28,915 bases of DNA. Source: a virus. Of the stretch, positions 4,514-21,797 are shown one piece after another (positions within the stretch are counted from its first letter, which is position 1; each line of letters opens with the position of its first letter). Made by a program: the position numbers and the translations under genes. Below the pieces are notes generated by a model. The model saw only the letters and a program-made list of their open reading frames with translations, was not told where the DNA came from and made no database searches. The stretch spans positions 21,168-50,082 of the IMG/VR virus record IMGVR_UViG_3300030102_000637. One strand, given 5' to 3'.

Positions 4514-4688
4514 AAATATTTGGGATAAAGAAAGAAATGACATCTTTAGAGATCTTACAAGACAGTATGAAGAAGAAGGTTACTCTCTTAAAGATGCTAA
4601 ACGTCTTGCTAAAAAAGAGGTTGATGAAGTTATGGAAGATAAAGAAGATATAGTAAATTATTTATTAAGCGATGATCTGTTTGAATAG
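4506..4688 (+). CDS. Small charged hypothetical protein
   Basis: A 60-residue highly charged helical protein. It contains RQYEEEGYSLKDAKRLAKKE, a pattern often seen in small phage proteins (an acidic-basic helix pair), and ends acidic. AGAGGAA about 6 nt upstream can act as the ribosome site. It overlaps the preceding gene by 8 nt. No family is recognised. Confidence 0.6.
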   Translation: MVKNIWDKERNDIFRDLTRQYEEEGYSLKDAKRLAKKEVDEVMEDKEDIVNYLLSDDLFE

Positions 4689-4690
4689 TT

Positions 4691-4831
4691 ATGTGGAAAT
4701 TATCTATTAATAGTAAATTACTATCTTTAAATTTTAAAACTAAAAAACAAGCTAAAGAGGAGATAGATAATAGAGCAGGACTACTTAAATATCTAGGGGT
4801 AAATAATGTATACAGGATTAAAAGAATATGA
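4691..4831 (+). CDS. Tiny basic hypothetical protein
   Basis: A 46-residue basic ORF filling the gap before the primase gene and overlapping its start by 26 nt. It reads as a beta pair followed by a Lys-rich helix (TKKQAKEEIDNRAGLLKYLG). The ribosome site is weak, so it could be spurious, but the packing of this region supports it. Confidence 0.35.
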   Translation: MWKLSINSKLLSLNFKTKKQAKEEIDNRAGLLKYLGVNNVYRIKRI

Positions 4832-6464
4832 TAAAGATAACTCTCGTGCTATTAGCCGCAAGCCTTGCTTTAAATGTGATTCAAGTGATGCTAATGTAGA
4901 ATATGATGACGGCCATCATTTTTGTTACAGTTGCGAGACATACTTCCCACCAAACTATAAATCAGAGGGCAACATGATACAACAACAGAAATCGTATCAA
5001 CTTAATAAAAATAAATCTTTTAACTTTTCAGCGATAGCTGACAGAAAAATCAGTGAGAAAACTTGCAGAGAGTATGGTGTTACTGTTTCTATGCAAGGAT
5101 CTATGATTACTGATCACCAATATAAATACTACGACAAAGATAACAATCACATAGCCACAAAATTTAGACAGACACAGAGTAAAAAGTTTTATTCTGAAGG
5201 TAACATGTCTGGTGCAGTTTTGTTTGGGCAGAATAAGTTTAATCAAGGTGGTAAATACATTACTGTGTGCGAAGGTGAGTTAGATGCTATGTCTGCTTAC
5301 GAGTTACTAGGTTCTAAATGGCCTGTCGTATCTATCAAGAATGGTGCGACATCTGCATTGAAGAACTGTCAACAAGCTCTGGATTACTTAAATAAGTTTG
5401 ATCAGATTGTTCTATGCTTTGACAATGACAAGCAGGGCAGAGAAGCAGAACAAAAAGTAGCTAAGTTATTTGAACCTAATAAATGTAAGATTATGAGTCT
5501 TGATCTGAAAGATGCTAATGAGTATCTAAAAACAGGGCAACGTGAGAAGTTTGTTAATACATGGTGGAATGCCAGAACATACACACCAGTAGGTATAATT
5601 AATCTAGCTGATCTTGGTGCATCTCTTTATGATGAAAAGGTAAATGAGACTTGTCTCTATCCTTGGTCTAAGATGAATGAAAAGACATATGGTATGCGTA
5701 CTGGTGAATTAATTACATTCACCTCTGGTGCAGGTATGGGTAAGTCCAGTATCATGCGAGAGCTTATGCATCATATTATGTCTAACACACAGGATAACAT
5801 TGGTGTGTTAGCTCTTGAAGAGAACACTCGCAATACCGCATTTAATATTATGAGTGTTGAAGCTAATGCTAGACTGTACATAAAAGAGATACGTGATCAG
5901 TATACACAAGAGCAGTTAAGTAATTGGCAAAATAAAACTATTGGATCTGGTAGGTTCTTTGCCTTTGATCATTTTGGTTCTATTGAGAACGATGAGATAC
6001 TAGATCGTGTAAGGTACATGGCCAAAGCTCTTGAATGTAAATGGGTATTCTTAGATCACTTATCTATTCTTGTATCAGGTCAAGAAGATAATGGTGATGA
6101 ACGTAAGTCTATAGATATTCTTATGACTAAGCTACGATCTCTTGTAGAGGAAACAGGCATAGCTCTATTGCTTGTCAGTCATCTACGTAGACCATCAGGT
6201 GATCGTGGTCATGAGGATGGGCGTGAGGTATCGCTTTCACATCTACGTGGCTCTGCTTCTATTGCTCACTTATCTGATGCAGTGATCGCACTAGAGCGTA
6301 ACCAACAAGCAGACGATGATGTAGAAGCTAACACCACTACCATACGTATTCTAAAGAATAGATATACTGGTGACACTGGTGTAGCTTGTCACTTGCATTA
6401 TGATAAAGACTCTGGTAGAATGTCACAGATTGATAACCCATTAATGGATAATGAAGATGACTAA
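4806..6464 (+). CDS. T7 gp4-like DNA primase-helicase
   Basis: A 552-residue bifunctional replicative primase-helicase. A zinc-binding domain uses C21, C24, C40 and C43. The TOPRIM primase core has EGELDA (157 onward) and DND (206-208). A linker leads to the RecA-like hexameric helicase with Walker A SGAGMGKSS (307-315), Walker B ending in D417 (VFLD), and LLLVSHLRRPSG plus SLSHLRGSASI in the C-terminal half. The C-terminus is acidic (DNPLMDNEDD), as in T7 gp4, where the tail binds DNA polymerase. It synthesises primers and unwinds DNA at the phage fork, working with the polymerase at 6924 and SSB at 8659. AGGGGT precedes the ATG. A second ribosome site and ATG at codon 57 may give a zinc-less short form. 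Confidence 0.95.
   Translation: MYTGLKEYDKDNSRAISRKPCFKCDSSDANVEYDDGHHFCYSCETYFPPNYKSEGNMIQQQKSYQLNKNKSFNFSAIADRKISEKTCREYGVTVSMQGSMITDHQYKYYDKDNNHIATKFRQTQSKKFYSEGNMSGAVLFGQNKFNQGGKYITVCEGELDAMSAYELLGSKWPVVSIKNGATSALKNCQQALDYLNKFDQIVLCFDNDKQGREAEQKVAKLFEPNKCKIMSLDLKDANEYLKTGQREKFVNTWWNARTYTPVGIINLADLGASLYDEKVNETCLYPWSKMNEKTYGMRTGELITFTSGAGMGKSSIMRELMHHIMSNTQDNIGVLALEENTRNTAFNIMSVEANARLYIKEIRDQYTQEQLSNWQNKTIGSGRFFAFDHFGSIENDEILDRVRYMAKALECKWVFLDHLSILVSGQEDNGDERKSIDILMTKLRSLVEETGIALLLVSHLRRPSGDRGHEDGREVSLSHLRGSASIAHLSDAVIALERNQQADDDVEANTTTIRILKNRYTGDTGVACHLHYDKDSGRMSQIDNPLMDNEDD
4963..4976 (+). promoter_or_regulatory. Possible internal ribosome site and start for a short helicase form
   Basis: AGAGGG (4963-4968) is followed after 5 nt by the in-frame ATG of Met57, just past the zinc-binding domain. 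In T7, an internal start at Met64 of gene 4 yields the 4B helicase lacking the zinc domain; the layout here matches. Production of the short form is inference. Confidence 0.5.
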
Positions 6465-6927
6465 ACAATATCAAGGTAAAAGAAAAAGTTTTGATAGAAG
6501 TATGTATGAAGCTTCCGATAAAGCAGCAAAGGAAGCAGCACTTAGATTTATTAAACCTATGAACTACCCACAAATTACAACTGAAGAAACAAAAGACTTT
6601 GATATAGTTTGTAGTATAGATAATAAACCACATCATTTATTTGAAGTAGAGGTTAAGTACAGTTGGAAAGGAGATTGGAACGAGAGTTGGGAGGAGATAC
6701 GTATACCTCATAGAAAAAATAGATTAGTTAAAAAATGGCAAGAGCTTTATCCAGATTCTCTATTTTCATTTCTAGTATTTAGAAATGATTGTAAGAAAGC
6801 TTGGTACATACAAGCAGAAATATTATTACATTGTGATGTTAAAGAAATATCCAATAGATACGTAAGAGAGGGCGAGAGTTTTTTTCATATACCAGTACAG
6901 GAGGCAACTCTCGTAGACATACCATGA
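6451..6927 (+). CDS. Probable PD-(D/E)XK (restriction-fold) nuclease
   Basis: A 158-residue protein with a likely restriction-endonuclease-fold core. D51 in KDFDIV is followed by the strand FEVEVK (residues 64-69), giving the D...E-x-K arrangement of this superfamily (E67, K69). Helical flanks and a later strand (FSFLVFRN) fit the fold. It is 14 nt inside the end of the primase-helicase gene and overlaps the polymerase gene by 4 nt, so it is co-expressed with the core fork enzymes. A role in recombination, junction or branch processing, or host DNA degradation is inference. Starts at 6451 and 6457 are both possible. Confidence 0.6.
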   Translation: MKMTKQYQGKRKSFDRSMYEASDKAAKEAALRFIKPMNYPQITTEETKDFDIVCSIDNKPHHLFEVEVKYSWKGDWNESWEEIRIPHRKNRLVKKWQELYPDSLFSFLVFRNDCKKAWYIQAEILLHCDVKEISNRYVREGESFFHIPVQEATLVDIP

Positions 6928-9171: not shown

Positions 9172-10041
9172 ATGAAAACTATTGATACTCTTGTAGAAGA
9201 TATATATAATTTATTTAATCTTGATCCTATAGATATGGATGAAGAAGAAGTAGATAAACACATAGATACTTTTGGTGAAATGCTAAAGGTACATATAAAA
9301 GATTTTCTATATGAAGTTCCTAAAGATAGAACAGGTTTAAGACTTTCTGCAATAGGTAAACCAGATAGAAAGATTTGGTTAGATGTTAATAGTCCTCTTG
9401 AAGAAGAACAACTTAAACCATCTACTAGAATAAAGTTTTTATATGGTTATATTCTAGAAGAACTTTTACTTTTATTTTCTACTATTGCAGGACATGATGT
9501 TAAAGATCAACAAAAAGAAGTTCATGTTGATGGTGTAGCTGGACATCAAGACTCTGTTATTGATGGTGTTCTTGTTGACTGTAAGTCAGCTAGTGGTTTT
9601 GGATTTGAAAAGTTTAGAAAAAATAATCTAGTGGAAGACGATCCATTTGGATATGTCGCTCAAATATCTGCTTACGCTCAAGCAAATGGTATAGATACTG
9701 CTGCATTTCTTGCAATAAATAAATCTACTGGAGAGATATGTTTATCTAAACTACATCAGATGGATATGATTAATGCAGAAGCAAGGGTCAAACATCTTAA
9801 AAATATTGTTAGTAAAGATAGCTTGCCTGATAAATGTTACTCTGATATACCTGATGGCAAGTCTGGTAATCGTAGCTTGGCTGTTGGTTGTGTCTATTGT
9901 AGTTATAAGCAAACATGTTGGGCAGATTCTAACCAAGGTAAAGGACTACGTGTATTTAAGTATGCAAAGGGTAATAAATTTTTAACACAGGTTGTGAGAG
10001 AACCAGATGTAGAAGAAGTGCATGCATTGGAAGTATCATAA
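9172..10041 (+). CDS. RecB/Cas4-like PD-(D/E)XK exonuclease
   Basis: A 289-residue nuclease. The PD-(D/E)XK core shows GHQD (D127) and VLVDCK (D136, K138), followed by the QxxxY motif QISAY (Q164, Y168) typical of the RecB/lambda exonuclease/Cas4 group. Four cysteines, C222 and then C240, C243 and C249, near the C-terminus may bind an iron-sulfur cluster. The N-terminal LSAIGKPDRKIWL resembles the region where Cas4-like enzymes carry the first cluster cysteine, but here it is absent. It likely resects DNA ends for recombination or degrades host DNA. The ATG directly follows the SSB terminator and has no visible ribosome site, so expression may depend on read-through. Confidence 0.8.
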   Translation: MKTIDTLVEDIYNLFNLDPIDMDEEEVDKHIDTFGEMLKVHIKDFLYEVPKDRTGLRLSAIGKPDRKIWLDVNSPLEEEQLKPSTRIKFLYGYILEELLLLFSTIAGHDVKDQQKEVHVDGVAGHQDSVIDGVLVDCKSASGFGFEKFRKNNLVEDDPFGYVAQISAYAQANGIDTAAFLAINKSTGEICLSKLHQMDMINAEARVKHLKNIVSKDSLPDKCYSDIPDGKSGNRSLAVGCVYCSYKQTCWADSNQGKGLRVFKYAKGNKFLTQVVREPDVEEVHALEVS

Positions 10042-10417
10042 AAAACCAGAACCACATGTTCATTTTGGTTTTGTCTATCAAATAACTAATAAGAAAACTA
10101 ATAAGTCTTATATAGGCTGTAAACAATATTACGTAACTCGTAATAAAAAAAAGGTAGAATCTAACTGGAGAATTTATACAGGCTCTAGTAAATATCTTAA
10201 TGAAGATATAAAAAAATTAGGTAAACGTGCATTTAAGTTTGAGATTATTTGTGAGTGTAAAAATAAAAGAAGTTTAAAATATTATGAGTGTTATTATCAA
10301 ATAATAAATCATGTATTAACTTCAAAATTAGAGGGAACAAATGAACCAGCCTTCTACAATAATTATGTAGGAGGTAAATTTTATAGGCCAGTACAAGAAC
10401 CACCAAATGGAAAATGA
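10022..10417 (+). CDS. GIY-YIG endonuclease (homing-type)
   Basis: A 131-residue protein with an N-terminal GIY-YIG-type nuclease module. FVYQITNK (residues 17-24) and SYIGCKQ (29-35) supply the two halves of the signature, with FVY in place of GIY. YTGSSKYL and a helix with YYECYYQIIN, whose Glu fits the metal-binding position, complete the module. No clear separate DNA-recognition domain follows, so it may be a compact freestanding homing or recombination nuclease. It overlaps the exonuclease gene by 20 nt and the next gene by 11 nt, so it is integrated in the operon without disturbing either gene. Confidence 0.75.
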   Translation: MHWKYHKKPEPHVHFGFVYQITNKKTNKSYIGCKQYYVTRNKKKVESNWRIYTGSSKYLNEDIKKLGKRAFKFEIICECKNKRSLKYYECYYQIINHVLTSKLEGTNEPAFYNNYVGGKFYRPVQEPPNGK

Positions 10418-10740: not shown

Positions 10741-11037
10741 ATGAATATTAAAAATGAATCAAGAGATCAGTATATAGTTAGAAAATTAAGAGAGGAAAAA
10801 GAATTGAAAGAATCATCACTAGAAAAACAAGTAGGTGGAAATCATTACAAAGAATGTGAGATACAACCAATAGAGTACATAGAAAAAAATAATTTAAGTT
10901 TTTGTGAAGGTAATATTGTAAAGTATGTAACGAGACATCGCACAAAAGGAGAGGGTAGAAAAGATATAGAAAAAGTAATACACTATGCTGAAATGATTTT
11001 AGATTTATATTACAAAGAAAAGAAAGTATTATGGTAA
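10741..11037 (+). CDS. DUF3310 protein (T7 gp1.7-like nucleotide kinase relative)
   Basis: A 98-residue protein with the DUF3310 signature: VGGNHYKECEIQPIEYI (from residue 31), then EGNIVKYVTRHRTKGEG and DIEKVIHYAEMILDL. Relatives are common in tailed phages, and the family is linked to T7 gp1.7, a nucleoside mono/diphosphate kinase. Its place just before the DNA-modification and ribonucleotide reductase genes fits a role in nucleotide supply. The kinase activity here is inference from that link. Confidence 0.85.
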   Translation: MNIKNESRDQYIVRKLREEKELKESSLEKQVGGNHYKECEIQPIEYIEKNNLSFCEGNIVKYVTRHRTKGEGRKDIEKVIHYAEMILDLYYKEKKVLW

Positions 11038-11648
11038 GTGCTATGAGTAAAAAAGATTATATGCTCAAAGTTATTAACAAAAAAGATTGTGAAGATTTAT
11101 TACATAAATATCACTACCTAACTAACATATCTCGTGGATTTAAGTCTGGTTCAAACTATGGTTTATTATATAAAAAAGAAATCGTTGGTGTATGTATATT
11201 TACTGGACTACCAGTTCCAGAACTAGCCAAAGGAATGTTTGGTTTAGATAGGACTAAACAAAACGGCTTGTACGAGTTGTCAAGGTTGGTCTTACATCCA
11301 GATCATCAAGCAAAAGAACACAATTTAGCCTCTTGGTTTGTGTCCAGAGCAATTAAATCACTTAGAAAAAATAATAAAGTAAAAGCTGTGCTTAGTTACG
11401 CAGATAATGATTATCACGATGGGGTTGTTTACAAAGCTTTGGGGTTTGGTTATTATGGACTAACAGACCAAAAGTCAGATTTCTGGATTAAAAAAGATGA
11501 TGGCACATATGTAAAACATTCTCGTGGTTCAGTTAAGAATTTGGAAGGAGAGTGGAGAAAAAGATCACAAAAGCATAGATTTTTAAAAGTATTTGATAAT
11601 AACTTAACTGTCAAATGGAACACACAAAGAGTAGGGGCAAATGATTAA
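11031..11648 (+). CDS. Mom-like GNAT-fold protein, putative DNA base modification enzyme
   Basis: A 205-residue protein with a GNAT acyltransferase-like core. HKYHYLTN opens the domain; IVGVCIFTGLPVPEL, YELSRLVLHPDHQ (residue 81 onward) and NLASWFVSRAIKSL follow, then AVLSYADNDYHDGVVYKAL. This order and wording match phage proteins of the Mu Mom family. Mom converts adenine in DNA to N6-carbamoylmethyl-adenine, protecting phage DNA from restriction. If active, this phage may carry modified adenines. The gene overlaps DUF3310 upstream and nrdA downstream by 7-8 nt, within the nucleotide metabolism block. Start at 11031 or 11043 is uncertain. Another GNAT substrate is possible. Confidence 0.7.
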   Translation: MVSAMSKKDYMLKVINKKDCEDLLHKYHYLTNISRGFKSGSNYGLLYKKEIVGVCIFTGLPVPELAKGMFGLDRTKQNGLYELSRLVLHPDHQAKEHNLASWFVSRAIKSLRKNNKVKAVLSYADNDYHDGVVYKALGFGYYGLTDQKSDFWIKKDDGTYVKHSRGSVKNLEGEWRKRSQKHRFLKVFDNNLTVKWNTQRVGAND

Positions 11649-13431
11649 AGATGATATTACAATCTCTCCTGAGAGAGATAATCTTTTTGATGAGTTAGGG
11701 ATCACTCGTCTTAAAGAAGCTTACATGATGGATCATGAAATTTCACCACAAGAAAGGTTTGCACATGTATCTAGCTGTTTTGGTTCTAATAAAGAACATG
11801 CTCAAAGATTATATGAGTACGCTTCAAAACATTGGCTCTCGTATTCAACACCAATTTTATCGTATGGACGATCTAAACGTGGGCTTCCTATTTCTTGTTA
11901 TCTTAATTATATTGACGATAGTTCTGAAGGATTAGTGGAGAATTTAAGTGAAACAAACTGGCTTTCAATGTTGGGTGGTGGTGTTGGTGTTGGCTTTGGT
12001 ATTCGTTCATCTGATGATAAGTCTACAGGGGTTATGCCTCACCTCAAAATGTATGATGCATCAAGCTTGGCATACAGACAAGGGAGAACTCGTAGAGGTA
12101 GCTATGCCGCATATCTAGACATATCACATCCAGACATACTTATGTTTCTTGAGATGCGTAAACCAACAGGAGATCAAAACTTTCGTTGTCTTAATATGCA
12201 TCATGGTATTAACATATCAGATAAGTTTATGAGTGTTCTTGAACACTGTATGGTTAATCCACTTGCTGATGATAGTTGGGATCTAGTTGATCCACATAGT
12301 AACGAAGTAAGAGATATTGTTTCTGCTAAAGAACTTTGGCAACGTATATTAGAAATGCGTATGCAAACAGGAGAACCTTACATACATTTTATTGATAAGT
12401 CTAACAATGAAATGCCATCATGGTTAAAACAAAAAGGTTTTAAAATAAACCAATCTAATTTATGTTCTGAAATTATTCTACCTACATCAGAAGAAAGAAC
12501 TGCTGTATGTTGTTTATCTTCTGTAAACTTAGAGTACTTTGATGAGTGGTCTAAAGACAAAGATTTTCTATCAGATACATTAGAAATGTTAGATAATGTT
12601 TTACAAAGTTTTATTGACAACGCTCCTGATACTATTCATCGTGCTCGTTATAGTGCGAAGCGAGAGAGATCAGTTGGAGTTGGAGCACTTGGATTTCATG
12701 CATACTTACAAAGTAAAAACATACCCTTTGATTGTGCGTTAGCTAAATCTCATAACATTAGAATGTTTAAACATATTAGAGAAGGTTTAGACTATGCTAA
12801 TAGAAGTTTAGCTTTATTACGAGGTGAAGCTCCTGATGCTGTAGGAACAGGACTAAGATGTAGTCATGTAATGGCTATTGCACCTAATGCATCTAGCTCT
12901 ATTATCATGGGTAATACTTCTCCATCAATAGAACCTTGGAGAGCTAATGCCTATAGACAAGATACTCTTAGTGGATCTTTCTTAAATAAAAACAAATTCT
13001 TAGATAAAATTATTAAGACTAAATGTGAAGAAGATAGTAAGCTAAACTATGAACGTATCTGGTCTAGTATCATAGCTAACGATGGTTCTGTACAACATCT
13101 AAGATCTTTTACCTCTGAAGAGAAAGAAGTATTTAAGACTGCTATGGAGATAGATCAACGATGGGTTATAGAACATGCAGCAGATAGACAACAATACATT
13201 GACCAATCACAATCTCTTAATGTATTCTTTAGACCTGATGCTGAGATTAAATACCTACATGCTATACACTACATGGCATGGAAGAAAGGACTAAAGACTA
13301 TGTACTATTGTCGTTCAGAAAAGATTGGTAAGGCTGACAAAGTTAGCCGTAAGATTGAGCGACAGATTATTAATGAGTTAGACATGGAAGCACTAGCATC
13401 TGGAGATGAGTGTCTTGCCTGTGAAGGATAA
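11641..13431 (+). CDS. nrdA: Class I ribonucleotide reductase, alpha (large) subunit
   Basis: A 596-residue NrdA that reduces ribonucleotides to deoxyribonucleotides with NrdB (14701). Visible catalytic residues are the redox cysteines C86 (ISCYLN) and C290 (AVCC) and the core N273/C275/E277 in NLCSE. The C-terminal radical-transfer tyrosines lie in MYYCRSEK, and a mobile CxxC tail (DECLACEG) is regenerated by thioredoxin or glutaredoxin. It starts almost directly at the catalytic domain: the N-terminal ATP-cone of E. coli NrdA (761 residues) is missing, so dATP feedback inhibition is probably lost. It overlaps the Mom-like gene by 8 nt. Confidence 0.97.
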   Translation: MIKDDITISPERDNLFDELGITRLKEAYMMDHEISPQERFAHVSSCFGSNKEHAQRLYEYASKHWLSYSTPILSYGRSKRGLPISCYLNYIDDSSEGLVENLSETNWLSMLGGGVGVGFGIRSSDDKSTGVMPHLKMYDASSLAYRQGRTRRGSYAAYLDISHPDILMFLEMRKPTGDQNFRCLNMHHGINISDKFMSVLEHCMVNPLADDSWDLVDPHSNEVRDIVSAKELWQRILEMRMQTGEPYIHFIDKSNNEMPSWLKQKGFKINQSNLCSEIILPTSEERTAVCCLSSVNLEYFDEWSKDKDFLSDTLEMLDNVLQSFIDNAPDTIHRARYSAKRERSVGVGALGFHAYLQSKNIPFDCALAKSHNIRMFKHIREGLDYANRSLALLRGEAPDAVGTGLRCSHVMAIAPNASSSIIMGNTSPSIEPWRANAYRQDTLSGSFLNKNKFLDKIIKTKCEEDSKLNYERIWSSIIANDGSVQHLRSFTSEEKEVFKTAMEIDQRWVIEHAADRQQYIDQSQSLNVFFRPDAEIKYLHAIHYMAWKKGLKTMYYCRSEKIGKADKVSRKIERQIINELDMEALASGDECLACEG

Positions 13432-13441
13432 GGAGATTACT

Positions 13442-13999
13442 ATGGAACTTACTGCTGAAATAGTTAGAGAGTTATTAGATTATAATCCTGATACTGGAGA
13501 TCTTTTTTGGAAAGAAAGACCTCTAAAATATTTTAAAAAGGAAGTTTACGCACGTAAATGGAACAATCAATGGGCTGGTAAAGAAGCATTTACTTATAAA
13601 ACTAAAGACTATAGCTCAAAACATGGAAGAATTGCATGTAGAGAAGGTTCAATTTTTGGAAAAAGATACTTAGCACATCGTATAATTTGGCTATATTATT
13701 ATGGTTGTTGGCCTAAACATCAAATAGATCATATCAATCATGATCCAACTGATAATAGAATTATTAATCTTAGAGATGTTACTCATACTGAAAATAATAG
13801 AAACAAAACACTTCAAAAAAATAATAAAGTTGGACACAACGGAATCTATTATGATAATGAAAGAAAACAATATAGAGCACATATTTATAATGGTAAATAT
13901 TCTAAACATATAGGACGTTATGATACTTTAGAAGAGGCGATAAAAGCTAGAGAACTAGCAAATATAAATTATAATTTTCACCCTAATCATGGTAGATAG
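13442..13999 (+). CDS. HNH homing endonuclease with AP2 DNA-binding domain
   Basis: A 185-residue freestanding homing endonuclease. The HNH module is at residues about 78-121, with LAHRIIWLYYYG, then HQIDHINHDPTDN and INLRDVTHTENNRN supplying the metal-binding His and Asn. It is followed by an AP2-type DNA-binding module (132-175; GIYYDNERKQYRA and YDTLEEAIKARE). The ATG at 13442 has AAGGAGA 6 nt upstream. An in-frame GTG at 13406 lies inside nrdA and is less likely. It sits between nrdA and nrdB, a common location for phage homing endonucleases, and leaves both genes intact. It probably arrived by its own homing activity. Confidence 0.9.
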   Translation: MELTAEIVRELLDYNPDTGDLFWKERPLKYFKKEVYARKWNNQWAGKEAFTYKTKDYSSKHGRIACREGSIFGKRYLAHRIIWLYYYGCWPKHQIDHINHDPTDNRIINLRDVTHTENNRNKTLQKNNKVGHNGIYYDNERKQYRAHIYNGKYSKHIGRYDTLEEAIKARELANINYNFHPNHGR

Positions 14000-14141
14000 T
14001 TTAGAATTTAAAAATGTATGTTACATATGTAAACTAGGTTGGGTAACAGGAGATCAGTATGAGTTTACATGGGATAGGAAAGGATTAAAACTTTGCTATG
14101 AATGTTATTATATGTTAGAAAGGAAAAGTAAAAATGAGTAA
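13989..14141 (+). CDS. Tiny zinc-ribbon-like protein
   Basis: A 50-residue ORF with two CxxC pairs, CYIC (11-14) and CYEC (36-39), spaced like a small zinc ribbon. It overlaps the HNH gene end by 11 nt and the next start by 8 nt. It may bind zinc and act as an adaptor. Small zinc-finger proteins near homing endonucleases are sometimes part of the mobile unit, but that is inference. Confidence 0.55.
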   Translation: MVDSLEFKNVCYICKLGWVTGDQYEFTWDRKGLKLCYECYYMLERKSKNE

Positions 14142-14394
14142 ATTGATAATAATAATTGTAATGTTCTTTCCTAATTTACAAGATTATGACACAGGTAATG
14201 TTCTTGTTGTTAGTCATAAAGATGGTAAAGAATTAGTATTTGAAAAACAAGAACAGTGTTATAAATATGTAACTGATAATATAGGTGAGTTACTTGATTT
14301 TGCTAAAAATTCTTACAAAGAAATAGATGGAGCACAAGTAAGTAAGTTTCTTTGTTTACCTAAAGATTTAGATAAGAGAGGTATTTCAACGTGA
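14134..14394 (+). CDS. Probable exported small protein
   Basis: An 86-residue protein with a hydrophobic N-terminus (KLIIIIVMFFPNL), looking like a signal peptide or anchor, followed by a mostly soluble charged part with two cysteines (QCYKY and FLCLPKD). It has an AAAGGAAAAG ribosome site and overlaps both neighbours. It is one of the small genes separating nrdA from nrdB. No family is recognised. Confidence 0.55.
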   Translation: MSKLIIIIVMFFPNLQDYDTGNVLVVSHKDGKELVFEKQEQCYKYVTDNIGELLDFAKNSYKEIDGAQVSKFLCLPKDLDKRGIST

Positions 14395-14708
14395 TTAAAA
14401 TTGTAGGTGGTTGGTGGATGTCTATTATGGACCATAGATATAATCCACTAAGTAACATACCAAGTTTAACTGTGCGGCATATGGTTATGCAAGTGTTAGC
14501 ATGGATGTGGTGTATTATATTTAGTATATACATGGGTTCATTTATTGTGTTTGGTATTTCTGCTGTAGCTCATGTATTTTTATTACTTGGTTTATTTGTA
14601 ACAGCAGCTACTTTTGAGGTGGCTAAAACAAACCCAAGCTTTTTTGGAAAACTATTTCCTAGAAGTGTTGGTGGTTTAGGAAGAGGAAATGGGGGCGAAC
14701 ATGAATAA
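14391..14708 (+). CDS. Small two-TM membrane protein, GTG start
   Basis: A 105-residue protein starting with GTG that overlaps the previous stop (GTGA). AGAGAGG lies about 10 nt upstream. Residues about 33-52 and 54-74 are strongly hydrophobic (VLAWMWCIIFSIYMG and VFLLLGLFVTAA), giving two transmembrane helices with a Gly-rich soluble tail (GGLGRGNGG). No family is recognised. Its position directly before nrdB might reflect operon filling rather than a functional link. Confidence 0.55.
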   Translation: MIKIVGGWWMSIMDHRYNPLSNIPSLTVRHMVMQVLAWMWCIIFSIYMGSFIVFGISAVAHVFLLLGLFVTAATFEVAKTNPSFFGKLFPRSVGGLGRGNGGEHE

Positions 14709-15672
14709 ATTAAAATTACAAGATCAAAGAGATTACTTTAAACCGTTTCATTATCCTTGGGCTTATGATGCATGGCTCAAGCATGAGCAATCACATTGGT
14801 TACATACAGAAGTACCAATGCTTGAAGATGTTAAAGATTGGAAAAACAAACTAAGCACAGAAGAAAAATACTTTCTTACTAATATATTTAGATTCTTTAC
14901 ACAGTCAGATATAGATGTGTCTGGTGGCTATGTAGAAAATTATTTACCACATTTTCCACAACCAGAAGTACGTATGATGCTATCTTCTTTCTGTTCAAGA
15001 GAAGCATTACATGTAGCAGCTTACTCACATCTTATTGAATCTCTTGGTATGCCAGATAGCACATACAATGAGTTCAATGAATATGAAGCTATGAGAGATA
15101 AGCATGAGTTTTTTAAAGATCATGTATCAAAACAAAACGTACCAATACCTTTACAGATTGCAGCTATCTCTGCTTTCACAGAGGGACTAGCATTGTTCTC
15201 TTCTTTTATTATGTTGTTAAACTTCCCTAGACATGGTAAGATGAAAGGCATGGGACAGATAGTTACATGGTCTATTGTAGATGAAACACAACACGCAGAA
15301 GGTATGATTAAATTATTTAGAACTTATATAGAGGAAAATAGAGGGGTTTGGAATGATAAAACAAAATCAGAAATCTATAAAACGGCAAGTAAGATGGTTG
15401 ATCTTGAGGATAAATTTGTTGATCTTGCGTTTAAAATGGGGGCAGTGGATGGACTTACACCTGAAGAAGTTAAAACGTATATTCGTTATATAGCAGATCG
15501 TAGGTTAATATCTATGGGTATGAAAGGTATTTACAAAGTTAAAACTAATCCACTACCTTGGGTAGAGACTATGATCAATGCTCCTACTCATACAAACTTC
15601 TTTGAGAACAGAGCTACGGACTATGCTAAAGGTGCATTGCAAGGAGACTGGTCTGATGTTTGGGCGAACTAA
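14701..15672 (+). CDS. nrdB: Class I ribonucleotide reductase, beta (small) subunit
   Basis: A 323-residue NrdB that generates the tyrosyl radical used by NrdA. The iron ligands are all present: D70, E101 and H104 (EALH), E161, and E195 and H198 (DETQH). Radical Tyr108 lies seven residues after E101, matching E. coli E115/Y122, so this is a conventional tyrosyl-radical class Ia-type subunit. An in-frame ATG at 14689 is an alternative start, with AAGAGGAA upstream. The gene overlaps the preceding membrane-protein gene and the following small gene. Confidence 0.96.
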   Translation: MNKLKLQDQRDYFKPFHYPWAYDAWLKHEQSHWLHTEVPMLEDVKDWKNKLSTEEKYFLTNIFRFFTQSDIDVSGGYVENYLPHFPQPEVRMMLSSFCSREALHVAAYSHLIESLGMPDSTYNEFNEYEAMRDKHEFFKDHVSKQNVPIPLQIAAISAFTEGLALFSSFIMLLNFPRHGKMKGMGQIVTWSIVDETQHAEGMIKLFRTYIEENRGVWNDKTKSEIYKTASKMVDLEDKFVDLAFKMGAVDGLTPEEVKTYIRYIADRRLISMGMKGIYKVKTNPLPWVETMINAPTHTNFFENRATDYAKGALQGDWSDVWAN

Positions 15673-15865
15673 AAAACACTTACAAGATGTCAACATGACA
15701 TACTGGCAGCACTTTAGATTTGTTCTTAGTTGTCTACCCTATTTATTTTTTGCTACAGTATTTTTTATTATACATGCAATAATACCGGGGTTATTTACTA
15801 ATACAGCAAGTGCAATAGTATCAGAGTTAGATTTTAAATTAATGTTAAGTAAAAAAAGTTCTTGA
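15656..15865 (+). CDS. Small single-TM protein, DUF6356-like
   Basis: A 69-residue protein with AAGGAG 9 nt before its ATG, overlapping the end of nrdB by 17 nt. The core (TYWQHFRFVLSCLPYLFFAT then IIHAIIPGLFTNTAS) resembles small membrane proteins of the DUF6356 type, with one hydrophobic segment around residues 22-45. The family function is unknown. It closes the nrd operon; a strong promoter starts at its final codons. Confidence 0.6.
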   Translation: MFGRTKKHLQDVNMTYWQHFRFVLSCLPYLFFATVFFIIHAIIPGLFTNTASAIVSELDFKLMLSKKSS

Positions 15866-15890
15866 CATATAGGGATTCATACTGTATAAT
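15862..15890 (+). promoter_or_regulatory. Perfect consensus sigma70-type promoter for hsp20
   Basis: TTGACA (15862-15867), a 17-nt spacer and TATAAT (15885-15890), a full match to the consensus, beginning at the last codons of the upstream gene. A second overlapping TATAAT ends at 15895. Predicted transcription start is about 15897. Confidence 0.88.
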
Positions 15891-15946: not shown

Positions 15947-16369
15947 ATGTTTCAATATACAGATTCAATGGTAAAAAATTTTTTAGAAAACTCAATAGGA
16001 TTTGATAGTCTACTATACAGTTTGAAAGAGCAGACAAATCAGTACCCACCTTATGATATTATTAAACACTCTGATACTTCCTATGAGATTACATTAGCAC
16101 TTGCTGGTTTTTCTAAAGAAGACATTGCTGTAATACAAGAAAAAAATACCGTTACTATCTCTAATAATAAAAAGATAAATGATGTAGGAACTACTGTAGA
16201 TAAAAAATATATACATAATGGTATTGCTAAAAGACCATTTACAAAAAAGTTCTCACTACTACAAAATGCTGTCATAAGTGATGTATCTTTTGAGGATGGA
16301 CTATTAACACTACACATTAATATTGTAGTTCCTGAAGAAGAGAAACCTAAACAAATAGAAATACAATAG
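15947..16369 (+). CDS. Small heat shock protein, Hsp20/IbpA type
   Basis: A 140-residue alpha-crystallin-domain chaperone. The IbpA-like N-terminus (IGFDSLLYSL then YPPYDI) leads to YEITLALAGFSKEDI and the domain core, and KYIHNGIAKRPFTKKF precedes the end strand DGLLTLHI. The protein ends in a tail with IEIQ, an oligomerisation-type I-x-I motif. It holds unfolding proteins in a refoldable state and would buffer folding stress during virion production or temperature change. It has its own consensus promoter and terminator, giving an insulated, probably high-level transcript. Phage Hsp20 is known from marine T4-like phages; this replication background is different. Confidence 0.93.
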   Translation: MFQYTDSMVKNFLENSIGFDSLLYSLKEQTNQYPPYDIIKHSDTSYEITLALAGFSKEDIAVIQEKNTVTISNNKKINDVGTTVDKKYIHNGIAKRPFTKKFSLLQNAVISDVSFEDGLLTLHINIVVPEEEKPKQIEIQ

Positions 16370-16376
16370 AACTATA

Positions 16377-16406
16377 GAGGGGTAGGTAAAACTACCTCTC
16401 TCTTTT
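16377..16406 (+). terminator. Rho-independent terminator after hsp20
   Basis: GAGGGGTAG (16377-16385) pairs with CTACCTCTC (16392-16400) with one G-T pair, giving a 9-bp stem with a 6-nt loop (GTAAAA), then TCTTTT. It lies 8 nt after the Hsp20 stop and insulates that gene from the glycan block. Confidence 0.75.
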
Positions 16407-16417
16407 CTGGAGAAGAC

Positions 16418-17188
16418 ATGAGAAAAGCACCTAATACAATTTATATAGGTTATGATCCTAAAGAACAAGTAGCCTATGATGTTTTAAGATTTACAATAGA
16501 ACGTATCTCTGTAGAGAATGTTCGTATCGTGCCTATAAAAAAAGATATTTTAGAACTTAACGGTATGTATACAAGAACACACACTACTGTTGAAGGGCAA
16601 CACATAGACGATATTGATGGTAAACCTTTCTCTAGTGAGTTTAGTTTTACACGTTTTCTTGTACCAGCTATGAATATGTATGAAGGTTGGGCATTGTATA
16701 TGGATTGTGATATGTATCCACGTACAGATATTAATGCATTATTTGAAGAATATAATAATAGTTTTTATCCTTTATACTGTGTAAAACATAAGTATGAACC
16801 GGGTGATGGTATTAAAATGGATGGTAGAGTACAGCAAAACTATCGTAGAAAAAACTGGTCTAGTTTTATTCTTTGGAACTGTAGCCATCCTTACAATAAA
16901 AAAATAACACCAGAGGTTGTTAATACTCAAACAGGACAATGGCTTCATGCTTTTGGTTGGTTGCCAGATAAAGAAGCTGACATTGGTTCTATACATGAAG
17001 AGTGGAATTGGTTAGACAATCACTCACCTACTGAAGTTGAAGCTAAGAATGTACACTTTACTACAGGTGGTCCTTGGTTTAAAAGTTGGAGATCTGGTAG
17101 AAAAATTGATGGTCAGTATGCAGCAGAATGGAACGCTGATTATACTTATCTTGCAGGAACAGGACAAATAAAAGCTTATGAAATATAA
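16418..17188 (+). CDS. Glycosyltransferase, GT8-like
   Basis: A 256-residue putative sugar transferase with a GT-A-like fold. It opens with NTIYIGYDPKEQVAYD, followed by FSFTRFLVPAMN and the D-x-D metal motif YMDCDMYPR (D96 and D98). The C-terminal HFTTGGPWF matches the His-containing end of GT8-type enzymes. It would transfer a sugar from a nucleotide-sugar donor to an unknown acceptor, such as a host glycan, phage protein or phage DNA. GGAGAAG precedes the ATG. It overlaps the three-module gene by 11 nt, and both probably act in one modification pathway. Confidence 0.75.
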   Translation: MRKAPNTIYIGYDPKEQVAYDVLRFTIERISVENVRIVPIKKDILELNGMYTRTHTTVEGQHIDDIDGKPFSSEFSFTRFLVPAMNMYEGWALYMDCDMYPRTDINALFEEYNNSFYPLYCVKHKYEPGDGIKMDGRVQQNYRRKNWSSFILWNCSHPYNKKITPEVVNTQTGQWLHAFGWLPDKEADIGSIHEEWNWLDNHSPTEVEAKNVHFTTGGPWFKSWRSGRKIDGQYAAEWNADYTYLAGTGQIKAYEI

Positions 17189-19559
17189 AATAGTTACGTG
17201 TTTTGATGAAACACTTTTAAAAATTAATGGATCAAAACTAATAGAACAATTTGCCTCAAGCTGGCAACCTAACATAGAGTTTCATTGTTATTATTATAAT
17301 TTAGATATATCTAATTATTCTTTACCTAATAAAGATAATATTCATTATCATAATTTAAATAATATAGATGGCTTCTCTGAGTTTATGGAGCGTAATAAAA
17401 CTCATGATGGTACAGAGGGTGGTAGTGTAGAATATAATTCTATTATTGATGTATTATCAGAAGCACCTAAATTATTTTCTATAAGTGAACAAGCATTTAA
17501 TGATAATAACTCTTGGCTGTTTTGGTTAGATGCTAACTGCTGCACAGTAAGAGATGTGAGACTCAATAGTTTAAAGACTATTTTTAGTGATGATGATAAT
17601 GCACTATCTTTAGCCTTAGTTGAACATAGAAATCATTTTGCTGCTTTCAATTTACAAAGCCAACCTGTAGTAGAACTTCTTGCTGATATAAAAGGAGCAT
17701 ATATTACAGATAGGTTTACAAATTATAGAGAGTGGGGATTTAATTTTATACTAGGCTCTATCTTACCTTTGTATCAAGCACGAGGATTAAACTATAAACT
17801 ATTTACAGAAAATAGCATTGGGGTACTAAATAATTTATTTGTAGATCTACGTGATCCAGCATCTAGAAAACTAAGAGATGCTAAAGGTAATAGAATAGTT
17901 CCTCTATCTGATAAAGAAACATCACCAGATATATTACCGGGAAGATATAAACAACTTGCAGATATTATCAGACACTATAAACCACAAACTATCTTAGAAA
18001 CAGGTACATGGAATGGTGGTAGGGCTATAGAAATGGCTCTTGCTATATTTGAAAAGTCAGATAAAGCACACTACATTGGTTATGATTTATTTGAAGATGC
18101 CACACCAGAGATAGATCAAGAAGAATTTAATTCTAAAGCTCACAATACTTTAGCTGCTGTAACAGCGAGACTAGAAGAGTTTAAAGAGTTTGTTAAAAAA
18201 GAAAGAGGAAAAGAGTTTACTTTTAAATTAGTTAAAGGTGATGTAAAAGATGTACTTGATGGTAAAGAAAATAACAGTATTGATTTTGCTCTCATTGGTA
18301 GTGGTAATAGCTACGATACTGTAGCTCATGAATATCTGTGTTTAAAAAATATTCCTATCGTTGTTGCTGATCATTACTTCACAAAAGATGAAGCAGAAGA
18401 AATGCCCCCTGTTATTTATCAGGGTGTAAATGATGTCTTTAAATCTGTGTCTACAAAAAAAGTAAAAGCAGATGAAGTTCCAGATGTGGATGGTTGGCAT
18501 ACATTTGATGATAATTCTACAACAAGAAAGTATGTATTACCATCTAGTGATAGAGTTCTTGGAGGTGGAACAACACACTTAGTTGTCTTCCTTCATGATC
18601 CTGATTTAAAAGATATACCAGAAGATGTTAAACGTGTACCTATAGTAGTACATCCTAGAGACTGTGTGCCTAAAGATTATATTGTAAGTAATATACAAAC
18701 AAATATAAAACTTATAGGTAATGATAAATGGATTTCTAAACATCCATCTCACAGAGAAATAGGTATTGTTGTATCTGCTGGCCCATATTTAAATTATGCA
18801 GAACTAAAAGAATTTATACATAAAAAATTAGAGAAAGGTATTAGACCTAAAATACTAACTGTTAAACATGCTTATCCTAATTTATTAAAACATGGTATAA
18901 AACCTTGGGGATGTATTGTTCTTGATCCTCGTTCAATAGAAGGTAAAAGTACACATAATATTGTGCGTAAAGATTTGTTTAAAGATATAGATAAAGATAC
19001 TTTATTCTTTGTTGCATCTATGACAGACCCATCTGTTACTAAACATATTAAAGATAGTGATGGTAAAATATGGGGTTGGCATGCTTTTACAGACTTCATG
19101 AGAAAAGAACAAGAACGAGGCACACAGATAGTTAATCAAACTGTACAGCTTAACGAAGAGTTAGGTATACCACAAGGAGCTACATTAATTACAGGTGGTA
19201 CTTGTGCAGCTATGCGTGGTATAGGTTTGATGCACACAATGGGCTTCAGAGAAATACATCTCTTTGGTTATGACTGTTGCCGTGAAGAACCAACAGCAGA
19301 AGAGAAGACAGAAACTACAGGTGATATAGAGGGTGGTGAAACACCTAAACCTAAATACATACAAGTTAATGTAGGAGATACTACATACTGGACTACAGGT
19401 GAGCTTTTAGCTATGGCTCAAGACTGTGAGAAAGTATTTGAAGATCCCGGCCTTGAAGGTGTATTAGAACTTCATGGTAAAAATACAATGATCTCTGCTT
19501 TATGGGATATTAAAAAGAGTAAGGAGAAACGTCCACCGTTTGCAGGATATTATGATTGA
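17178..19559 (+). CDS. Three-module protein: glycosyltransferase-like, SAM methyltransferase-like and DUF115-like domains
   Basis: A 793-residue multidomain protein. Residues 1-220 are alpha/beta with SWLFWLDANCCTVRDV (112-127), which suggests a GT-like domain with a divergent D-x-D-type position. Residues about 250-460 are class I methyltransferase-like: ILETGTWNGGRAIEMAL (272 onward) and YIGYDLFED (299-307). Residues about 520-790 resemble DUF115, as in MAF-type flagellin glycan proteins and MptE-like enzymes: IVVSAGPYLNY (530-540), ITGGTCAAMRGIGLMHTMG (671-689) and IHLFGYDCC (693-701). It probably builds or transfers a methylated sugar. Domain borders are approximate. It overlaps genes on both sides. 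Confidence 0.7.
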   Translation: MKYKIVTCFDETLLKINGSKLIEQFASSWQPNIEFHCYYYNLDISNYSLPNKDNIHYHNLNNIDGFSEFMERNKTHDGTEGGSVEYNSIIDVLSEAPKLFSISEQAFNDNNSWLFWLDANCCTVRDVRLNSLKTIFSDDDNALSLALVEHRNHFAAFNLQSQPVVELLADIKGAYITDRFTNYREWGFNFILGSILPLYQARGLNYKLFTENSIGVLNNLFVDLRDPASRKLRDAKGNRIVPLSDKETSPDILPGRYKQLADIIRHYKPQTILETGTWNGGRAIEMALAIFEKSDKAHYIGYDLFEDATPEIDQEEFNSKAHNTLAAVTARLEEFKEFVKKERGKEFTFKLVKGDVKDVLDGKENNSIDFALIGSGNSYDTVAHEYLCLKNIPIVVADHYFTKDEAEEMPPVIYQGVNDVFKSVSTKKVKADEVPDVDGWHTFDDNSTTRKYVLPSSDRVLGGGTTHLVVFLHDPDLKDIPEDVKRVPIVVHPRDCVPKDYIVSNIQTNIKLIGNDKWISKHPSHREIGIVVSAGPYLNYAELKEFIHKKLEKGIRPKILTVKHAYPNLLKHGIKPWGCIVLDPRSIEGKSTHNIVRKDLFKDIDKDTLFFVASMTDPSVTKHIKDSDGKIWGWHAFTDFMRKEQERGTQIVNQTVQLNEELGIPQGATLITGGTCAAMRGIGLMHTMGFREIHLFGYDCCREEPTAEEKTETTGDIEGGETPKPKYIQVNVGDTTYWTTGELLAMAQDCEKVFEDPGLEGVLELHGKNTMISALWDIKKSKEKRPPFAGYYD

Positions 19560-20259
19560 ATATATAGAACAATATAACAGAGACAATCCATCTCAAAGAT
19601 ATAAAGATTTACTAAAAGAATATGAAAAGTTACATGCACATAGTGAAGGTATGTTTAATGGTAGAAGTTTAATAAGATTTGCTGGACCACTTAAACAAAT
19701 AATTAAAAAGCATGGTTGTGAAACTTTATTAGATTATGGCTGTGGTAAAGGACATCCTTATACAGATAAGTTTCATACTGTTCCTGACTCTGATTTCTTA
19801 GATAAACCAATACATGAGTTTTGGGGTATAAAAGATGTTACTCTTTATGATCCCGGTGAAGAAGAACATAATAAATTACCAACTGGAGTTTATGATATTG
19901 TAGTAAATACAGATGTTTTAGAACATGTACCATATCAAGATCTAGCTTGGGTTATTAAAGAGATATTAAACTACTCTACTAACGTAGTATTTCTTAATAT
20001 ATGTTGTCTACCTGCAATAAAACATTTTCCTAATGGTGAGAATGTACACGTATCTCTTTATCCTGTAGAAGAATGGCTACAATTTATTGCTAGAATATCA
20101 GTAGACTATCCGTATCTAACTATATATGTTTATGCTGATGATAAAAATAATGATAAGAAGCGTTTAAATGCTTATAAAATAATACCAAGACCAACAATAA
20201 TACCATTAAAGACAGCTCCTAAAAAAGATTATAAATCAGAATTACAAAGGTGGGATTAA
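19552..20259 (+). CDS. Class I SAM-dependent methyltransferase
   Basis: A 235-residue methyltransferase. The SAM-binding motif LLDYGCGKG is at residues 59-67 and the later DIVVNTDVLEHVP marks the acidic/post-II region. It uses a Rossmann-like fold to move a methyl group from S-adenosylmethionine to an unknown acceptor. The neighbouring glycosyltransferase genes point to a sugar or a glycan-linked protein. The ATG at 19552, after GCAGGAT, is preferred over an in-frame TTG at 19540. It overlaps the previous gene by 8 nt and abuts the SET gene. Confidence 0.8.
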   Translation: MIEYIEQYNRDNPSQRYKDLLKEYEKLHAHSEGMFNGRSLIRFAGPLKQIIKKHGCETLLDYGCGKGHPYTDKFHTVPDSDFLDKPIHEFWGIKDVTLYDPGEEEHNKLPTGVYDIVVNTDVLEHVPYQDLAWVIKEILNYSTNVVFLNICCLPAIKHFPNGENVHVSLYPVEEWLQFIARISVDYPYLTIYVYADDKNNDKKRLNAYKIIPRPTIIPLKTAPKKDYKSELQRWD

Positions 20260-20580
20260 TTGACTGTATTAAAATATAATAGATTTTATTATGATCCATT
20301 ACCCAGTAATGTAGAAATTAGAGAAAGTCCTATACATGGTCATGGTATCTTTGCTAAAGAAAATATTAAATCTAAAACAGATTTAGGTTCTACTCATATT
20401 AAATATCCTATGATTATAGGTTATATAAGAACACCTCTAGGTGGTTTTATAAATCATTCAGATAATCCAAACTGTTATCTAGTTATATCACAAGAGTGGG
20501 ATGACTATCTAATTTATAATATACTAACATCTAGAAAAATATTAAAGAATGAAGAAATACTTTTAGACTATGAAGTATAA
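20260..20580 (+). CDS. SET-domain protein, probable protein-lysine methyltransferase
   Basis: A 106-residue compact SET-domain protein. IHGHGIFAKENI gives the opening G-x-G and beta strand; GGFINHSDNPNC contains the N-H-S-x-x-P-N SAM and catalytic motif; EEILLDYEV gives the final E and D-Y motif. SET proteins methylate lysine in proteins. The substrate here could be a phage structural protein or a host protein. The start is a TTG directly after the previous stop, with AAAGGTGGG 6 nt upstream. It is the last gene of the glycan/methyl block. The SET assignment is strong; the target is unknown. Confidence 0.85.
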   Translation: MTVLKYNRFYYDPLPSNVEIRESPIHGHGIFAKENIKSKTDLGSTHIKYPMIIGYIRTPLGGFINHSDNPNCYLVISQEWDDYLIYNILTSRKILKNEEILLDYEV

Positions 20581-20591
20581 GGAGTAACATA

Positions 20592-20996
20592 ATGTTAGGA
20601 ATAGCAGACAGTGTTATAGGTGTAGCTGGTAAAGTTCTTGATAAGTTTGTAGAAGATAAAGATCTCAAGACTAAATTAAATGCTGAACTAAAACAACAAA
20701 TGATTAGTCTTGATCTTGCTCAAGCACAAGCTAATATAGAACAAGCTAAACATCCTTCTATATTTGTTTCAGGGGCTAGACCTGCTATTATGTGGATCTG
20801 TGCATTTGCTCTTGGTTGGCAGTTCATACTTGCACCTATAGCATCATGGGTTATTTTAACTTGGTATCCAATGGTTACATTACCTGTACTAGAAACAGGT
20901 GAGCTTACAAGTTTAGTTCTTGCATTACTAGGACTTGGTGGTATGAGAACAGCAGAAAAGTGGAAGGGTGTAGCTAGAAACAATATGAAACAATGA
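20592..20996 (+). CDS. Holin, 3-TM type (GTA_holin_3TM)
   Basis: A 134-residue membrane protein with a long, partly amphipathic N-terminal helical region (GKVLDKFVEDKDLKTKL). The membrane part contains SGARPAIMWICAFALGWQFI (60-79), then PMVTLPVLETGELTSLVLAL and GLGGMRTAEKWKGVAR. This matches the holin of gene-transfer agents and many alphaproteobacterial phages. It should make the inner membrane permeable at lysis so that murein-degrading enzymes reach the wall. TAAGGAG precedes the ATG. It overlaps the cupin gene by 4 nt and lies close to the strand change. Confidence 0.85.
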   Translation: MLGIADSVIGVAGKVLDKFVEDKDLKTKLNAELKQQMISLDLAQAQANIEQAKHPSIFVSGARPAIMWICAFALGWQFILAPIASWVILTWYPMVTLPVLETGELTSLVLALLGLGGMRTAEKWKGVARNNMKQ

Positions 20997-21343
20997 AAGC
21001 AGGAAAAGTTTGGGGTGAGACACACTCTGTATTTAAGAACGGTGTATTTGAATTTCACCATATAAAATTTAATAAAGGTAGTAAATGTAGTAAACATAAA
21101 CACAAGTATAAGTGGAATGGATTCTATGTTACTAAAGGTGAACTAATTATTAGAGTATGGAAAAATAATTATGATCTTGTAGATGAAACATTTCTTAAAG
21201 AAGGAGAATGGACTACAGTAGGGCCGAGAGAGTATCATCAGTTTGAAGCTGTATCAGATGGAGAGGCTCTTGAATTATATTGGGCTGAGTTTGATCATGA
21301 TGATATTGAACGTGAGACAGTAGGAGAAGCTGGTGGCTCTTAA
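20993..21343 (+). CDS. Cupin-fold protein
   Basis: A 116-residue single-domain cupin. GSKCSKHKHKYKWNGFYVTK (residues 29-48) has the first cupin motif with His ligands, and GPREYHQFEA (77-86) is the second. Such proteins bind a metal and act as sugar isomerases, epimerases or dioxygenases, or just bind sugars. Near the glycan block it could act on a nucleotide sugar; a virion role is also possible. It overlaps the holin (ATGA) and the terminase gene by 11 nt, so it is made with late functions. Confidence 0.75.
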   Translation: MKAGKVWGETHSVFKNGVFEFHHIKFNKGSKCSKHKHKYKWNGFYVTKGELIIRVWKNNYDLVDETFLKEGEWTTVGPREYHQFEAVSDGEALELYWAEFDHDDIERETVGEAGGS

Positions 21344-21797
21344 CGAAAAACAAGAAAAGTTTGCACAGTCTTATATATTACATCGTAATGCTACAGAGGC
21401 TGCAAAGAATGCTGGTTATGCTCCTGACTCAGCAGCTAATCAAGGCTACCGTCTTATGCAGAACCAAGAGGTTGTTGATAGAGTCCATGAACTAGAGCAG
21501 CAACTTGAAACAGACGTAGATGTTATAGGTGAATTAGAAAAGCAGTATGAGTTTGCTAAAAATAATGGTCACTCTAATAGTGCGCTCAAAGCTCTAGAAT
21601 TATTATCTAGAATACGTGGTGCTAACAGTGATATTAATACTGGTTTAGATAAAGATACATTAGAAACAGCCATAGTAGGTTGTCTTAATACATTAGGAGA
21701 GGAAAAAGTTATTAATTTATTAGAGAAGTGTGACTTTGCTAATAATATATTTGAGGGGCAAGATGAAGAACATGCTGAAGAAATGGAAAGTATATGA
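21333..21797 (+). CDS. Terminase small subunit (Terminase_2-like)
   Basis: A 154-residue small terminase subunit. The N-terminal helix-turn-helix LNEKQEKFAQSYI then NATEAAKNAGYA and LMQNQEVVDRVHEL is the classic DNA-recognition pattern of TerS proteins. The later part is helical and oligomerising, with an acidic tail. It recognises phage DNA and presents it to the large subunit (TerL) for packaging. The start is GTG with TAGGAG 6 nt upstream. TerL is not in this window; the gene lies at the end of the plus-strand arm. Confidence 0.85.
   Translation: MALNEKQEKFAQSYILHRNATEAAKNAGYAPDSAANQGYRLMQNQEVVDRVHELEQQLETDVDVIGELEKQYEFAKNNGHSNSALKALELLSRIRGANSDINTGLDKDTLETAIVGCLNTLGEEKVINLLEKCDFANNIFEGQDEEHAEEMESI

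Follow-up and report, generated by a model that had tools for sequence, protein, structure and literature searches.

A conserved three-gene run encoding a fused DUF115 protein in uncultured marine phages is a candidate system for glycan assembly and methylation

The Maf/PseD proteins of flagellin glycosylation are related by a DUF115 core (PF01973), and Maf enzymes O-glycosylate Ser/Thr residues; for two of them, use of CMP-Neu5Ac and CMP-Kdo has been reported (PMC11339370). Capsid glycosylation has been suggested for mycobacteriophage Maravista (PMC11256854), and phage proteins of the DUF115/MptE-like type were not described in the part of the literature that we covered. Here, we present an analysis of a glycosyltransferase and methyltransferase locus in the virus record IMGVR_UViG_3300030102_000637 (50,082 bases), of which positions 21168-50082, a stretch of 28,915 nucleotides, form the window analyzed; coordinates are window positions unless assigned to an L-numbered locus. 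A preliminary description of this locus had proposed a four-gene cassette, encoding a GT8-like glycosyltransferase (P1), a three-module glycosyltransferase/methyltransferase/DUF115 protein (P2), a methyltransferase (P3), and a SET protein (P4), for making a methylated glycan. All four open reading frames (ORFs) were confirmed in place, with only the start of P3 revised. More importantly, the conserved unit consists of three genes, P1-P2-P3, shared by a large group of uncultured phages from the ocean. The proposed enzyme classes, the three-module layout of P2, and the idea of a methylated-glycan pathway are supported.

The evidence for the three-gene unit comes from scans that each kept the best 80 loci, near-identical contigs included, so that the counts are not independent. 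In the P2 scan of viral contigs, the best 80 of 475 relatives were kept, all full-length or nearly so and with 58-100% identity; another scan, for which a divergent relative served as the query, yielded more, and P2 identity among relatives spans 37-100%. In total, 96 distinct loci were obtained. P1 directly precedes P2 in all 87 of those with room for it, and P3 directly follows P2 in 69 of 69. With a stricter gap limit, these numbers were 71 for P1 and 61 for P3, and all printed exceptions reflected a longer overlap of P1 or P3 that stems from choosing the start of the longest ORF. The order P1-P2-P3 is kept down to 45% P2 identity (L129) and P1-P2 down to 37% (L341). In a scan anchored independently on the neighboring gene for the terminase small subunit (TerS; 21333-21797, +; PF03592, 1.1e-15), i.e., without selection on P2, 60 of the 61 loci whose upstream sequence was long enough carried the set, as scored on the DUF115 domain of P2. 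In the window, the reading frames of P1 and P2 overlap, as do those of P2 and P3, while P3 and the SET gene abut. The four-gene run is bounded upstream by a hairpin terminator (16376-16401, +) and downstream by a holin gene (GTA_holin_3TM, 7.6e-13; 20592-20996, +) that closes the conserved run and lies at most 1.7 kb downstream in 56/56 distinct loci with room. P1, P2, P3, and SET are all under purifying selection, with ratios of nonsynonymous to synonymous substitution rates of 0.09-0.35. L358, a TerS-anchored locus lacking the set, was set aside as a phage of a different layout; at 5867-6724, its holin (89%) and TerS (80%) are close to the pair in the window, which suggests a cassette exchange.

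A shared gene order in other phages had been chosen beforehand as the test of the four-gene cassette. P1, P2, and P3 pass it, fixed together with the holin, but SET does not: SET is present in only 10 of 56 distinct loci with room, all among the nearest relatives. Likewise, the cupin gene noted at 20993 does follow in the window (20993-21343, +; Cupin_2, 6.7e-7) but is not a conserved partner, being present in 15/56 distinct loci. A four-gene unit was, therefore, rejected, with SET and cupin as sub-clade additions. The SET protein P4 (106 amino acids; 20260-20580, +) matches PF00856 (5.5e-10) above the cut-off, and its GxG, NHSxxPN, and LDYE motifs, which are those expected of SET lysine methyltransferases, are shared with small viral SET proteins; what differs is its occurrence in a bacterial virus and outside the conserved set. 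SET relatives numbered at least 550 viral-contig matches plus six annotated phage records, and among 71 SET loci checked outside the clade, P1- and P3-like genes were also present only in L213. Thus, SET is a sporadic gene separate from the conserved unit, an optional passenger that many unrelated marine phages carry in the absence of P1-P2-P3, rather than a fourth component of the proposed pathway. Marine phages commonly encode very small SET proteins (L146-L225); examples are Pelagibacter phage Kolga and cyanophages P-SSM7 and P-RSM6.

The enzyme classes assigned to P1, P3, and P4 were borne out by folds, Pfam, and PHROGs. P1 (256 amino acids; 16418-17188, +) matched no Pfam family, had no match in the PDB by sequence at E<=1, and fell into phrog_28018 (unknown function; 1.3e-43). 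Its AlphaFold model (mean pLDDT, 79) resembles GlyE (5gvw), UGGT, LgtC, and LARGE1, with the major-capsid glycosyltransferase of PBCV-1 (2p72) among the lower-ranked matches, and a DxD (D96, D98) and an HFTTGGPW motif are invariant in its relatives. Based on the predicted GT-A fold and the invariant DxD, P1 is a GT8/GT24-like enzyme, sharing fold and DxD with enzymes of these families. P3 (235 amino acids; 19552-20259, +) is a predicted S-adenosylmethionine (SAM)-dependent methyltransferase that matches Methyltransf_23 (4.6e-6) and phrog_24759 (9e-17), and its SAM motif I, DYGCGKG, is conserved, with D-Y-G-x-G-K invariant. P3 was first listed with a TTG start at 19540; its relatives consistently begin at the equivalent of the ATG at 19552, which is most likely the start.

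P2 (793 amino acids; 17178-19559, +) has the three modules that had been proposed, as supported by fold matches and PF01973. Its AlphaFold model (mean pLDDT, 78) has the Magnetospirillum Maf transferase 5mu5 as its top fold match in the PDB, followed by O-methyltransferases of the TomG and COMT types, the GT-A enzymes GlyE, BoGT6, and LARGE1, and MptE (8sd5); whole-chain template modeling scores were low, as expected for matches to individual domains within a longer chain. By sequence, the lone PDB match was an L-asparaginase, which we judged spurious, and there was no match in 50,697 annotated phage records. Predicted structures include multi-domain MptE-like proteins resembling P2 from uncultured Caudovirales phages (A0A6J7X5Q0; 26% identity; E, 7.8e-50). 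Domain 1 (residues ~1-235; 17178-17882, +) is GT-A-like by fold and has a homolog in Pelagibacter phage Mosig (6.8e-9). In the alignment, however, the DxD metal-binding motif typical of GT-A enzymes is lost in most members, which have D-A/P-x at this position, with DAD in L078 and NTN in L129; the metal-independent BoGT6 (4ayj) is among the fold matches of this domain. Domain 2 (residues ~236-470; 17883-18587, +) is a predicted O-methyltransferase that matches Methyltransf_24 (5.6e-5) slightly below the family cut-off and has a conserved SAM motif, ETGTWNGGRA, of which E-x-G-T-W-N-x-G is invariant among relatives. Domain 3 (residues ~471-793; 18588-19559, +) is DUF115/Maf-like (MptE-like) and matches PF01973 at 4.9e-13 and 49.6 bits, above the curated cut-off of 34.6.

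The flagellin link that had been drawn from DUF115 holds at the superfamily level only. While P2 shares the DUF115 core with Maf/PseD, the N- and C-terminal domains of Maf are replaced in it by the GT-A and O-methyltransferase domains; its sole NCBIfam match, PseD, reaches 26.5 bits, far below the 670-bit cut-off; it carries the motifs VDPR and GG[ST]xxxxR...HLFGxD where bacterial Maf proteins have IEN and NTA; and it lacks a flagellin partner. By its sequence, P2 is thus a member of the DUF115 superfamily and not a flagellin Maf. Judged by eye in one alignment and without a tree, its DUF115 motifs group with those of L271, L269, and the bacterial L397 and not with L385-L393.

Relatives outside the clade occur in other arrangements. 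In the IMG/VR contig L271, five consecutive genes, for DUF115, a glycosyltransferase, a 197-amino-acid protein without a Pfam match, an O-methyltransferase, and P1, follow the gene for the major head protein, from which two small ORFs separate them, and precede a tail protein. In L269, also from IMG/VR, a fusion of DUF115 with a P3-type methyltransferase comes directly after Ser-rich repeat proteins and is followed by a TylF methyltransferase, a 301-amino-acid protein, P1, and then the portal gene. The P2 domains, therefore, exist elsewhere as separate parts beside P1 and among virion genes. With hidden Markov models built from the clade, adjacent relatives of P1 and P3 were found in Caulobacter phages C1 (gp165 and gp166), CcrBL9, and CcrColossus, Stenotrophomonas phage DLP_6, and the spring-water phage ctDrO704. 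In Mosig, P1 adjoins a relative of P2 domain 1, and genes for two FkbM methyltransferases and a sulfotransferase lie alongside; in DLP_6, the neighbor is a GT29 sialyltransferase; and FkbM methyltransferases, a sulfotransferase, GT9, and GT29 are the enzymes encoded near these clusters taken together. These clusters thus resemble the present locus in the adjacency of P1 with P3 or with domain 1 of P2, but their genes are unfused, and DUF115 had no match in the four whole records of Mosig, C1, DLP_6, and ctDrO704. Relatives of P2 domain 1 lie at most five genes from P1 in 19 of 75 other loci, compared with one match in 638 control ORFs. The full combination is rare in 75 distant P1 loci, with a DUF115 match at most five genes from P1 in two and an adjacent P3 match in one. 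In Synechococcus phage S-SCSM2R, genes annotated as KdsA and KdsB lie near a P1 relative.

We favor, with slightly more than even confidence, the reading that the P1-P2-P3 operon builds a short, methylated glycan late in infection, shortly before lysis, with a Ser/Thr-rich virion protein as the most likely acceptor. The DUF115 domain of P2 would place a sugar from a host nucleotide-sugar onto the acceptor, for example a tail fiber or capsid-surface protein; P1, and possibly domain 1 of P2, would lengthen the glycan; the methyltransferase domain of P2 and P3 would supply the methyl groups; and the fusion would keep the three steps of P2 at one site. Sugar-nucleotide synthesis genes were not recognized, so the donor must be host-derived. 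Gram-negative cells contain CMP-Kdo, and we suggest that this or another nonulosonate-type donor might be used. In phages that also have SET, the SET protein would have a role of its own, possibly the methylation of protein lysines. What we observe is the order and linkage of the genes, the types and folds of their domains, the conserved motifs, and purifying selection; from these, we infer the donor, acceptor, timing, order of reactions, methylated product, and benefit to the phage. By analogy, the fact that in L271 and L269 the enzymes are encoded amid genes for capsid, portal, and Ser-rich repeat proteins lends indirect support to a virion target, and a fiber-like ORF at the end of the record (record positions 3-2084, -), with 25% Ser+Thr compared with a mean of 12.7% for the ORFs of this phage, is a candidate acceptor. 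As in the virion glycosylation suggested for Maravista, the glycosyltransferases are encoded by the phage, and those of L271 and L269 lie next to genes for virion proteins; here, however, the enzyme set is different (a fused DUF115 protein and two methyltransferases).

Several observations weigh against this proposal. In addition to the lack of recognized sugar-nucleotide synthesis genes, the set does not adjoin fiber or capsid genes in this genome, and Ser/Thr-rich repeat fibers are common in marine phages and are, hence, weak evidence. L341 lacks P3, and domain 1 of P2 may be non-catalytic or metal-independent because its DxD is mostly lost. Finally, 28 of the 289 alphaproteobacterial genomes examined contain P1-family genes, in a few cases next to apparent polysaccharide or heptose genes as read from partial sequence (genes read as TPR, gmhA/gmhB-like, FkbM, and GT25-like); a P1 gene by itself is, therefore, no sign of a virion target. 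This last observation fits an alternative that we consider rather unlikely, namely that the target is a glycan of the host surface (lipopolysaccharide core, capsule, or S-layer), modified during infection so as to block superinfection or the sticking of released particles to debris. Consistent with this idea, DSL-LC06 has a P3-like methyltransferase grouped with heptosyltransferase and capsule-export genes, and the adjoining holin fits a late role in release. However, the families of O-antigen seroconversion by phages (GtrA flippase, GtrB, and membrane Gtr families) were unmatched in 15947-21797, as were flippase and polymerase families in the set; the enzymes lie inside virion gene clusters in L271 and L269; and characterized Maf-type transferases target Ser/Thr of proteins (PMC11339370).

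The remaining alternatives fare worse. Because PF01973 also carries the name of MptE, a 6-hydroxymethylpterin diphosphokinase, and P2 matches the fold of MptE (8sd5) significantly, the DUF115 domain could be an MptE and the operon could modify a pterin or another small molecule. We find this improbable: Maf 5mu5 is the top fold match and PseD the sole NCBIfam match, DUF115 is fused to (in L271, adjoins) a glycosyltransferase and a methyltransferase, and no folate or pterin genes were recognized nearby. Glycosylation of phage DNA at hypermodified bases, which would protect it from restriction, is a shade less probable still. A Mom-family gene (11031-11648, +; PF25680, 2.8e-21) 5 kb upstream of the set suggests that the phage modifies its DNA bases, apparently independently of the glycan set; however, hydroxymethyl-pyrimidine synthesis, base glucosyltransferase, and TET/JBP genes were not recognized among the scanned proteins, which exclude some small ORFs, and relatives of the set cluster with virion genes. 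To our knowledge, Mom does not need enzymes of the P1-P3 types. We give the least credence to P1-P3 being unrelated accessory genes adjacent by chance, as SET and cupin appear to be, since their order is conserved at the low P2 identities given above, their frames overlap, L271 and L269 show fusion or fission, and relatives are also paired in unrelated phages.

Upstream of the set, hsp20 (15947-16369, +; PF00011, 5.4e-14), encoding a small heat-shock protein, is a frequent partner, present in 53 of 84 loci with room (BLAST E<1e-6). It is preceded by the sole 12/12 sigma-70 promoter match in the 50-kb record (TTGACA-17-TATAAT; 15862-15890, +), and a match of at least 11/12 lies in a similar place in 54/55 loci, redundant contigs included. 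Because this promoter is kept, hsp20 is likely strongly transcribed and its product may be needed in large amounts. The terminator or attenuator between hsp20 and P1 introduced above recurs as a hairpin with a T-rich tail in 30/36 distinct hsp20-P1 gaps, with differing sequences; transcription of P1-P3 would occur by read-through or from an unrecognized promoter. Further upstream, class I ribonucleotide reductase alpha and beta genes occupy a slot at 11641-15672; in L129, an adenosylcobalamin-dependent reductase (4626-6581) lies between the shared upstream genes and hsp20, and most of the more distant relatives have an alpha match of ~23% with beta not matched. HNH/AP2 (13406-13999, +) and GIY-YIG (SegE-like; 10022-10417, +) endonuclease genes are probable homing genes, and the HNH gene sits between the two reductase genes. 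The window also encodes two cell-wall enzymes, a Cell Wall Hydrolase (PF07486; 3722-4222, +) and a peptidase M15 (PF08291; 22939-23325, -).

There are two hints to the host. L129 was binned in a Sneathiella metagenome-assembled genome; we rejected it as a bacterial gene, as the contig is a syntenic phage that is apparently also in IMG/VR as L306. The nearest terminase large subunit is that of Pelagibacter phage HTVC027P (40%); this phage and HTVC023P, the nearest relatives by this protein, were rejected as carriers of the set, as the parts examined had no P1, P2, or P3 match at E<0.01.

Extending the virion-glycan proposal, we tentatively suggest as a possibility that P1-P2-P3 is the core protein-glycosylation system of a widespread uncultured marine phage lineage, in which one fused enzyme would start, extend, and methylate a virion glycan with a host Kdo/nonulosonate-type donor, and that the same enzymes are shuffled, split, or fused otherwise beside capsid/fiber genes in unrelated phages. 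The fused and split versions provide a testable set for determining donor, acceptor, and order of reactions. If correct, a common lineage of ocean viruses, to which no isolate in the searched collections corresponds, sugar-coats its particles with dedicated enzymes of its own, and DUF115/Maf-type chemistry would extend from flagellin to virions. Methylated surface glycans could, in turn, influence adsorption, particle stability, or grazing.

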